Below are positions 33,452 through 36,781 of a stretch of DNA of 64,000 bases, piece by piece. The notes under the pieces were generated by a model, which did not search any database, was not told where the DNA came from, and saw only the letters and a list, made by a program, of their open reading frames with translations. Within the stretch, counting starts at the first letter, position 1; each line of letters starts with the position of its first letter. This stretch comes from Opitutales bacterium (GTDB lineage Bacteria > Verrucomicrobiota > Verrucomicrobiia > Opitutales > JAJFLR01). A program made the position numbers and the translations under genes. The stretch is from NCBI GenBank assembly GCA_021772565.1, contig JAJFLR010000054.1, forward strand, positions 1 to 64,000, read 5' to 3'.

Positions 33452-33769
33452 CTAATTAAAAGACTTTCCACAGCCGCAGGTGTTTTGGGCATTAGGGTTT
33501 TTAACTTCAAATCCTTTGCCGTGTAATCCGTCATCAAAATCAATTTCAGAATTTTTCAGGTAACTAATACTTGAAGAATCAACAGCAAATGTAATATTTT
33601 TACTCTCAATAATTACATCATCATTTTTCTTTTGATCAAATGACATACCATATTCGAAGCCGGAACAGCCACCGGAATCGACAAACACTCGCATGATTTT
33701 GTCTTTATCAGCCATTTCTTTCTGTAATTCCTTAATTTTAGTAGCCGCACTATCAGTTAATGTGATCAT
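33452..33769 (-). CDS. IscA/ErpA-type iron-sulfur carrier
   Basis: A 105-residue A-type carrier that holds and transfers Fe-S clusters. Three conserved cysteines are present: Cys35 in GGCSGFEYG, and Cys98 and Cys100 in TCGCGKSF. The length and the C-terminal CGC motif are standard. It is isolated from other isc or suf genes and convergent with the peptidase gene. A 7-bp inverted repeat (33407-33427) sits between the two stops. Confidence 0.92.
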   Translation of the reverse strand: MITLTDSAATKIKELQKEMADKDKIMRVFVDSGGCSGFEYGMSFDQKKNDDVIIESKNITFAVDSSSISYLKNSEIDFDDGLHGKGFEVKNPNAQNTCGCGKSFN

Positions 33770-33923
33770 TAATTACCATATCTAGCATAACATATTGACT
33801 TGTCAAGTTGACTCATTTGGTATCAATCTACATACTTTGCAATAATTTATAATTAAACATTGAATTAATAAATCTGATATTCATCTTATAAGTTTAATAT
33901 ATAAAGTTAGTTAACTAAAAACA

Positions 33924-34913
33924 ATGAGTCAATTAAGGCATATTTTTAATGAAATCGATTACGAGTTAGTCAGAAGTATTGCCGAGGGTGGAATGGGTGT
34001 TGTTTATGAAGCTCATCAATTGGGAGTTGACGATTTCTGCAAAACCGTCGCTATTAAATTAATCCGTGAAGAGTTTTCCGCCATTGAGGAATTTAGAAAT
34101 AATTTTGTTGGAGAAGCACGGCTTGTTGCTGATTTAATTCATACCAATATTGTTCAAACTTATCACCTCGGTGCAATAGGTGAACAATATTATATGGTTA
34201 TGGAGTTTGTTAATGGCATAAATCTGGAACAATTCCTATTACAACATGATGCAATGAAAAGACAAATGCCTATAGACTTGGCAGTGTTTGTCGTTTCAAG
34301 AGTTTGTCGTGGATTGGCATACGCGCATAATAAAAGAGATAGTAGTGATCGCTTACTCGGAATTGTGCACCGTGATGTTAATCCTAAAAACATTATGCTG
34401 GCAGTTGAAGGTGATGTAAAGCTAACCGACTTTGGTATAGCCAAGGCGCTTGATCTCATGTATAATGAAGAAGGAGAAGTCATTGCCGGTAAAGATGAAT
34501 ATTTGTCTCCTGAGCAGGCCAGGTGTGAAGTTACCGACGGGCGTGCAGATTTATTTTCCTGTGGTATCGTTTTAGCAGAATTATTGGTCGGACATAATAT
34601 TTTTGAAGGAGCATCACCCGATGAAACTTTAAAAAATATTCTGGACAAATCAATTCCGGATTTCACACAACTCAGAAACGGGGTAGATTATAAATTAAAT
34701 CTTATTCTCCAAAAGTCACTTGAAAGAGATCGTAATAAAAGATATAATTCGGCAAGTGAAATGCTTACTGCATTGGAAATGTATATCTATAGTGATGGCT
34801 ACGGCCCTACTAATGAAAAGCTCTCTGAGTATATTGAAGATCTGTTTAAAGTATCTCGTTCCGACCATTTAATGCAAAAGGAAGGTAATAGTACTTCAAA
34901 TAGAATTGGCTAA
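33924..34913 (+). CDS. Soluble Ser/Thr protein kinase
   Basis: A 329-residue Hanks-type kinase. It has glycine loop [10 protein letters not shown], catalytic lysine Lys45, HRD at 149-151 followed by VNPKN, and DFG at 169-171 (LTDFGIAKA). The activation segment ends in EYLSPEQAR, and a final lobe extends to about 295. There is no membrane span and no sensor domain, so it is a cytosolic kinase like the Pkn types of Myxococcus and Planctomycetes. Asn replaces the usual Lys two residues after HRD (HRDVNPKN), a substitution often seen in this group. It stands 26 bases before rpoN on the same strand, so the two are probably cotranscribed. Confidence 0.92.
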
Positions 34914-34939
34914 CCCATAACTCGTAATTTTTCTGACCT

Positions 34940-36415
34940 ATGTGTGCTCAGAGTCTACAGCAAGTTCAGAAGCAATCTTTAACAATGGCGCCTCAAATGC
35001 GCCAGTCATTAAAAATTCTGCAGGTTAATGCTTTAGATTTACGTAATACTATTCTAGAAGAGCTGCAGGCGAACCCCGCACTTGAAGAGCTTTCCAATGA
35101 GGCTACAAGTATCGATGAAACCGGTAACAATTTAATAGAGAGTACGCCCGATAATTTGAACGAAAGCTCAAGTGAGCCTACTGCTGATCTGCAAACCAAG
35201 GAGTTAAATTTTGATGGTGAATTTGAAGCATTCGCACAAATTAATGAAGAGTGGAATGATGATTACTCTGATAGAAATTTCAAAAATTCTTATACATCTG
35301 ATGATGCTGAAAGACGGCAGCACTTTTTTGAATCAATTACCATTGAAACTTCACTTCAGGAACACCTCGTTAATCAAATAGAGTTATCAGATGTATCAGA
35401 CGAAATGTTGGAAGCACTAAATTTTTTAGTCGGCAGTCTAAATGATAACGGTTTTCTGGTAGGTACTTTAGAGGAAATTGCAGAATCTTCAAAGTTACCT
35501 CTTGCAACAATTCAAGAAGCTCACATTATGCTAAAAACGTTTGAGCCACGAGGCATTGGATGTTTTGGCTTGAAAGAATGCCTCATCACTCAATTAGAAC
35601 TTAAGAAAAACCCTTGCCCGTTAGCTGTAGAAATAATCCTCAATCATTATGATCTACTTTTACGTCGACGTATACCGGAAATTGCCAAAAATCTTGATGT
35701 CAGTATTGATAAAGTTGAGGAGACTATTGAAGTAATTTCTACTCTTGATCCTGCTCCGGGACGTCAATTTTCCGAAGATAATAACCGCGTCGTGTTACCT
35801 GATGTCAAAGTAGAAAAAGATGGTGATAATTGGATTGTCATATTAAACAATGATTACATTCCACGTCTACGTATCAGTAATACCTACAAAAATATGATAG
35901 CTAAAGGCGGCTTATCGAATAATGAAAAAAATTATATTCTAAAAAAATTTAGAGATGGGAAATTTTTAATCAGTGCTATCGAACAACGCCAACAGACAAT
36001 CGAAAGAATAACCAGAATACTCCTCGATTTTCAAAAAGATTTTTTTGAAAATGGTGTCAAAAAAATGCATCCGTTGACAATGAACCAAGTTGCAAATGTG
36101 CTCGAAGTTCATGAAACTACAGTAAGTCGTGCTATAGCTAATAAATATATTGATACCCCTCATGGGGTTTTTGAGTTTAAATACTTTTTCACTCAGGGAT
36201 TTGTATCAGAAGATGGCGAAGCTGTTTCAAATACATCAATTAAAAGCCAAATCGCAAAAATTATTGAAGATGAAAATCCGGCAAAACCGCTAAGCGATAA
36301 CGCAATTGTTAATATACTTGCAGAAAAAGATATCAAAATAGCTCGTCGCACAATTGCAAAATACCGCGAAATGATGGGTATTTTACCAACAAATTTGCGC
36401 AGACGGTATAATTGA
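34940..36415 (+). CDS. rpoN: RNA polymerase sigma-54 factor
   Basis: A 491-residue sigma factor for enhancer-dependent promoters (-24/-12). Region I starts QKQSLTMAPQMRQSLKILQV (activator-interacting). An acidic region II spans about 60-125. Region III includes the core-binding part, an HTH (LTMNQVANVLEVHETTVSRAI) and the RpoN box ARRTIAKYRE near residue 472. Normal length. It follows the Ser/Thr kinase gene by 26 bases. No activator ATPase gene lies in the window. Confidence 0.95.
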   Translation: MCAQSLQQVQKQSLTMAPQMRQSLKILQVNALDLRNTILEELQANPALEELSNEATSIDETGNNLIESTPDNLNESSSEPTADLQTKELNFDGEFEAFAQINEEWNDDYSDRNFKNSYTSDDAERRQHFFESITIETSLQEHLVNQIELSDVSDEMLEALNFLVGSLNDNGFLVGTLEEIAESSKLPLATIQEAHIMLKTFEPRGIGCFGLKECLITQLELKKNPCPLAVEIILNHYDLLLRRRIPEIAKNLDVSIDKVEETIEVISTLDPAPGRQFSEDNNRVVLPDVKVEKDGDNWIVILNNDYIPRLRISNTYKNMIAKGGLSNNEKNYILKKFRDGKFLISAIEQRQQTIERITRILLDFQKDFFENGVKKMHPLTMNQVANVLEVHETTVSRAIANKYIDTPHGVFEFKYFFTQGFVSEDGEAVSNTSIKSQIAKIIEDENPAKPLSDNAIVNILAEKDIKIARRTIAKYREMMGILPTNLRRRYN

Positions 36416-36529
36416 ATTTGTGTATTGGCCTCATCAACCCTTCGGGCTATAGAAATTTCTGATGGCAGTTGCTATATTTGCTATAGCCTCAGTAAGATTG
36501 GTAATTAGATTATTGTAAATCAATAAAAG

Positions 36530-36606
36530 TGGTACCAGGAGTGGGACTCGAACCCACGGCCTCCTGATCCACAATCAGGCGCTCTAACCAACTGAGCTAT
36601 CCCGGC
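36530..36606 (-). tRNA. tRNA-His (anticodon GTG)
   Basis: A 77-base cloverleaf with encoded CCA. The acceptor 5' strand is GCCGGGA, the D arm GCTC...GAGC, the anticodon stem CCTGA/TCAGG with loop TTGTGGA (GTG, His), the T arm GTGGG-TTCGAGT-CCCAC, and the acceptor 3' strand TCCTGGT followed by A73 and CCA. Pair 1-72 is G-T and the discriminator is A. The base before position 1 is T. The usual bacterial tRNA-His has G-1 paired with C73; both are missing here. The rest of the structure is fully paired, so it looks functional. Confidence 0.95.
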
Positions 36607-36781
36607 AAATAAATTTATTTTGTAGGTATACTATCTTCAGTTCTAATATTATAAAAGAAAATTTTTTGACTAAATTATTGAGTAAGTGTATCGCGACATA
36701 GTTTCATAGTTGAAAATTGATACCGAGCAAAAAGCGCCATTTCCAAAATAAAACTCTATCACTTTACTGGATAAAAACTGC

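Follow-up and report, generated by a model that had tools for sequence, protein, structure and literature searches.

We found that the Opitutales genome studied here has most probably acquired a matched, G-1-independent pair of tRNA-His and histidyl-tRNA synthetase (HisRS) by horizontal transfer and has lost its native pair, a reading to which we assign a probability of roughly 0.86. The window, i.e., the whole stretch of 64,000 nucleotides that was analysed, contains the tRNA-His gene, and the HisRS gene (hisS) is located on a different contig. Since G-1 is regarded as a near-universal mark of histidine tRNA, the case is of general interest: both partners seem to have been exchanged in a lineage clearly outside the alphaproteobacteria, which suggests that a tRNA recognition rule can move from one phylum to another as a complete set and supplant the native rule. 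From the comparisons below we infer the direction of the transfer and also the joint arrival of the two genes, the latter only indirectly because they lie on different contigs.

The tRNA-His gene and its diagnostic positions in the window are as follows.

36530..36606, minus strand: tRNA-His (GTG), 77 nt with encoded CCA, G1:U72, A73 and U at -1 (ARAGORN, Rfam, sequence and fold)

36607..36607, minus strand: precursor position -1, a U (T in the DNA) replacing G (direct reading of the sequence)

36533..36534, minus strand: U72 and A73, i.e., the first acceptor pair G1:U72 and the discriminator (sequence and tRNA comparison)

36570..36572, minus strand: anticodon GUG (ARAGORN)

ARAGORN and Rfam RF00005 agree on this minus-strand tRNA-His (GTG) gene (36530/36533-36606; RF00005 score 73.2 bits, E 4e-14), and the RNA is predicted to fold into a cloverleaf. 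The gene sequence is GCCGGGATAGCTCAGTTGGTTAGAGCGCCTGATTGTGGATCAGGAGGCCGTGGGTTCGAGTCCCACTCCTGGTACCA. Its acceptor stem, GCCGGGA/TCCTGGT, includes the pairs G1:U72 and G4:U69 and is followed by A73 and the encoded CCA; the base 5' of G1 is T, and no G is encoded at -1. The gene does not have the canonical bacterial G-1:C73 and shows the encoded features of the bacterial G-1-less A73 type (no G at -1, with A73 and U72). The sequence-only reading, which had described a tRNA-His lacking G-1 with G1-U72 and A73, was borne out by the sequence, ARAGORN and Rfam alike. It had also pointed to other tRNA-His genes, the motif-2 region of HisRS and a Thg1-like protein as the places to look next. In the assembly (3.57 Mb, 124 contigs, 95.3% complete, contamination 0.37%), the window gene is the sole tRNA-His found, and no second or canonical tRNA-His occurs among the 42 RF00005 matches of this approximately 95% complete sequence. 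Neither tRNA-Ile(GAT) nor tRNA-Ala(TGC) was seen among the same 42 matches, and the assembly is therefore incomplete. A search of the genome for a second HisRS found none, and Thg1 gave no family match in the genome. The only HisRS is encoded as follows.

Contig C106, L031:1456-2940: HisRS (hisS), the single HisRS of the genome

This enzyme scored 367.6 bits against the hisS equivalog TIGR00442 (cut-off 286.75) and has the catalytic and anticodon-binding domains (PF13393 and PF03129). Its identity is 27-32% to the HisRS of its own order and 40-63% to A73-type HisRS, the hosts of which are Omnitrophota, Abditibacteriota, Hydrogenedentota, one Planctomycetota MAG, two Actinomycetota MAGs, a MAG labelled Akkermansia and Bryobacterales/Acidobacteria; the alphaproteobacterial enzymes, which come from megaplasmids, share 36-38% identity with it. 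In a maximum-likelihood tree of 53 HisRS, the enzyme of the window genome is placed inside a 24-row clade (support 99/99), within a wider clade that also takes in Bryobacterales and alphaproteobacteria (92/95), and the order relatives are separate (100/99). Forcing it into its own order lowered the log-likelihood by 101 and was rejected (p-AU 1.6e-6). The nearest row is that of Omnitrophota SURF_12, with a support of only 93/73. For the wider A73-type clade, a single origin may be proposed provisionally from these sequences, in a sample that is without eukaryotes and cyanobacteria. Across the phylum, A73-type HisRS was found in 2 of 387 genomes, the window genome and a second one, G222. A scan match in a Paceibacterota MAG (L161) has 28% identity and was set aside as not being an A73-type HisRS. 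Four Acidobacteria with A73-type HisRS (L262, L263, L264 and L265) carry a second HisRS-like protein under the hisS cut-off, perhaps HisZ.

The motif-2 region, which had been singled out for inspection, departs from the canonical xQ(K/R)GR and has its own PDPGR: the HisRS of the order read (F/Y)R(Y/F)E(R/K)xQ(K/R)GR, and that of the window genome reads FRADKPDPGR. In E. coli HisRS, C73 is read by Gln118 and G-1 by Arg123 (PMC10100707). The position equivalent to Gln118 is Asp in the window genome and Gly in 18 of the 28 A73-type enzymes and in all five alphaproteobacterial ones, and a Pro before Gly-Arg is present in 26 of the 28. A change at Gln118 was considered as the sole marker of A73-type HisRS and was dropped, as 3/28 of these enzymes keep Gln. 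Judged from the enzyme sequences, the motif-2 loop is altered, but no one residue is diagnostic.

For the tRNA, 288 genomes of the phylum and 35 closer relatives were screened with a tRNA-His pattern. Of the genes obtained, 59 were read, 29 of them belonging to the same order and 30 to other parts of the phylum, and every one has G-1, C72 and C73. The window tRNA-His is an exception to these genes and not a matter of chance. Conversely, in the genomes with A73-type HisRS the tRNA-His, where readable, has A73 and nearly always U72, so that tRNA type and enzyme type go together. All 22 genes that could be read there with the pattern share U72, A73, C2:G71 and C3:G70; at position -1 they have T, C or A, except for two with G. 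Two further genes, detected by ARAGORN alone and read separately from these 22, belong to two actinobacterial MAGs (L152:4879-4951 and L153:503-576); they have A73 but G1:C72 and lie directly upstream of an A73-type hisS. No tRNA-His turned up for L134 (Omnitrophota SURF_12), whose HisRS is the nearest relative, or for a few other genomes with A73-type HisRS. In plasmid and phage records, similar tRNAs were weak matches, several of which are annotated as other tRNAs, with no pointer to a carrier.

Is the tRNA then a replacement, or a resident gene that followed a new enzyme? In the latter case, HisRS alone would have been acquired and the resident tRNA-His would have mutated in place, losing G-1 and gaining U72 and A73. 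Ardell and Andersson in 2006 reportedly proposed such in-place adaptation of tRNA-His to HisRS for the alphaproteobacteria, and the two genes are unlinked in the window genome, as this account would allow. However, when positions -1, 1, 72 and 73 were removed, the window tRNA still joined the 22 A73-type tRNAs with a support of 100/98, and it has the same C2:G71 and C3:G70. Furthermore, it has G26/A44, as do 21 of the 22 A73-type tRNAs, in contrast to A26/G44 in 29 of 29 order tRNAs. A tRNA is short, and other members of the phylum have G26/A44 in some of their canonical tRNAs; without the whole acceptor stem, the strong support for the A73-type grouping is gone, and the nearest rows are still of A73 type. 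Because the grouping holds without the identity positions and G26/A44 is shared, replacement of the tRNA gene is favoured over mutation in place, which we consider unlikely, at about one chance in ten. Of the two causes that the sequence-only reading had proposed, parallel loss and transfer of HisRS, the second was supported: the genome's only HisRS is of A73 type and unlike that of its own order. The tRNA seems to have been transferred too, as its A73-type grouping persists when the identity positions are left out.

Both genes reside in native surroundings. In the window, the tRNA-His gene is next to a block that is conserved in the order.

33924..34913, plus strand: Ser/Thr protein kinase, in the order-conserved block 33452-kinase-rpoN

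34940..36415, plus strand: rpoN (sigma-54), the nativeness marker beside tRNA-His

The rpoN gene ends 115 bp from tRNA-His, and its product is 53-60% identical to those of most order relatives vs 32-42% to those of the genomes with an A73-type pair. The block 33452(-)/kinase/rpoN (window 33452-36606) is kept in the order, and conservation stops at tRNA-His. A canonical hisS lies a few kb from the rpoN block in four relatives and elsewhere in most, no more than a hint that tRNA-His may occupy a former hisS site. On the other contig, the M42 peptidase adjoining hisS has 56-72% identity to its counterparts in almost every order relative and no more than 52% to those in A73-type-pair genomes. The contigs of the two genes (C74 and C106) have a GC of 0.35-0.37 and tetranucleotide correlations of 0.83-0.95 to the genome, while contigs of A73-type genomes reach 0.47-0.72. 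By composition and neighbouring genes, both contigs are native to this genome. The description of the genome as verrucomicrobial also fits: by kinship, it falls with what look like Verrucomicrobiota, and the members of its order resemble Opitutales. The assembly is fragmented, and a contig carrying tRNA-His or HisRS could in principle have been binned from another organism; however, contamination would need two separate contaminant contigs together with a missing native pair, the contamination estimate is low, and composition and the neighbouring genes, which are closest to order relatives, led us to reject this explanation as highly improbable. Equally little credence can be given to the proposal that the tRNA receives its G-1 post-transcriptionally and is then charged by a normal HisRS: Thg1-like proteins of some bacteria do add a G opposite C73 (PMC6471195), but the genome has no match to the family, the bacterial Thg1-like reaction would find no template for a G in A73 (PMC6471195), and the HisRS is of the divergent type.

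Under the transfer of a matched pair, the window tRNA-His and the HisRS on C106 would form a histidine identity set that is independent of G-1:C73. The source would be a lineage of the A73/U72 type, in which tRNA-His and hisS often lie next to each other; loss of the canonical HisRS and of the native G-1:C73 tRNA-His would have followed. RNase P would cut the leader at +1, leaving no G-1, and the HisRS with its altered motif-2 loop would charge the tRNA through the GUG anticodon, U72 and A73, as in Caulobacter (PMC9976931, PMC3875453); maturation and recognition are modelled here on that organism.

The closest known system is indeed that of the alphaproteobacteria (RRCH clade, SAR11 in part), including Caulobacter crescentus, whose tRNA-His, like that of the window, has no encoded G-1, A73 and U72. 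In C. crescentus, histidine identity in vitro consists of A73, U72 and the anticodon (PMC9976931). The alphaproteobacterial HisRS also have Pro before Gly-Arg in the motif-2 loop and belong to the same wider clade. Unlike the window genome's enzyme, however, they form a separate subclade, and their motif 2 reads RNEKP vs RADKP. The divergent alphaproteobacterial HisRS mentioned in the sequence-only reading belong to a related clade and are not the closest kin. The window pair further differs in that it is a rare replacement in another phylum, with related genomes often having tRNA-His beside hisS. Eukaryotic tRNA-His shares the A73 discriminator with the window tRNA-His, and the HisRS of the window genome matches the human cytosolic enzyme with a better score than the E. 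coli or Thermus enzymes; eukaryotes add G-1 by Thg1, for which this genome gave no match. Among protists, Trypanosoma brucei and Acanthamoeba likewise have a G-1-less tRNA-His with an atypical HisRS (PMC9976931, PMC6471195). The archaeal-type TyrRS and TrpRS of CPR bacteria (PMC5370408) are also transferred synthetases with changed tRNA identity, but they concern other amino acids and archaeal sources.

In previous studies, the trait was described for alphaproteobacteria and for certain protists (PMC3937112, PMC9976931, PMC6471195, PMC5370408). A single bacterial origin, within alphaproteobacteria, was considered likely for the state with A73 and without G-1, and a transferred synthetase was expected to adjust to the tRNAs already present and not to remodel the rules (PMC3937112). 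A literature search that paired tRNAHis with Hydrogenedentes, Acidobacteria or Solibacter gave no hits, the founding papers being outside its coverage. The identity set is known from alphaproteobacteria, and its spread and linkage appear to be new in the searchable literature; the occurrence of the trait outside alphaproteobacteria is likely, though not proven, to be new. We are inclined to believe, with some reservation, that the tRNA-His/hisS pair is a transferable module that has reached several bacterial phyla, can displace the native pair and lets an identity rule be inherited horizontally as a unit. The tRNA and the synthetase lie side by side in related genomes, which suggests that a swap of both partners is feasible.

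Such linkage was observed in nine genomes (L135, L136, L138, L142, L144, L152, L153, L159 and G222), where tRNA-His is immediately 5' of hisS in the same direction. In G222, the linked tRNA-His also has U72/A73; the tree test neither favours nor rejects one acquisition common to G222 and the window genome (p-AU 0.25). The E. coli and Caulobacter tRNA-His/HisRS pairs are mutually orthogonal (PMC3875453), and further orthogonal pairs could naturally be sought among the linked ones. The Bifidobacteriaceae MAG G333 (L153, L166 and L261) holds an A73-type tRNA-His/hisS pair together with a canonical tRNA-His and hisS. Because its A73-type contig has a GC of 57% vs 64-67% for the other contigs checked, G333 may be a mixed bin or may represent a recent arrival of the A73-type pair; if it is not a mixed bin, it could be an intermediate. 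Another of the A73-type pairs is found in the MAG labelled Akkermansia muciniphila (L144, G324), which, with 7.9 Mb and approximately 63% GC, is unlike that species.
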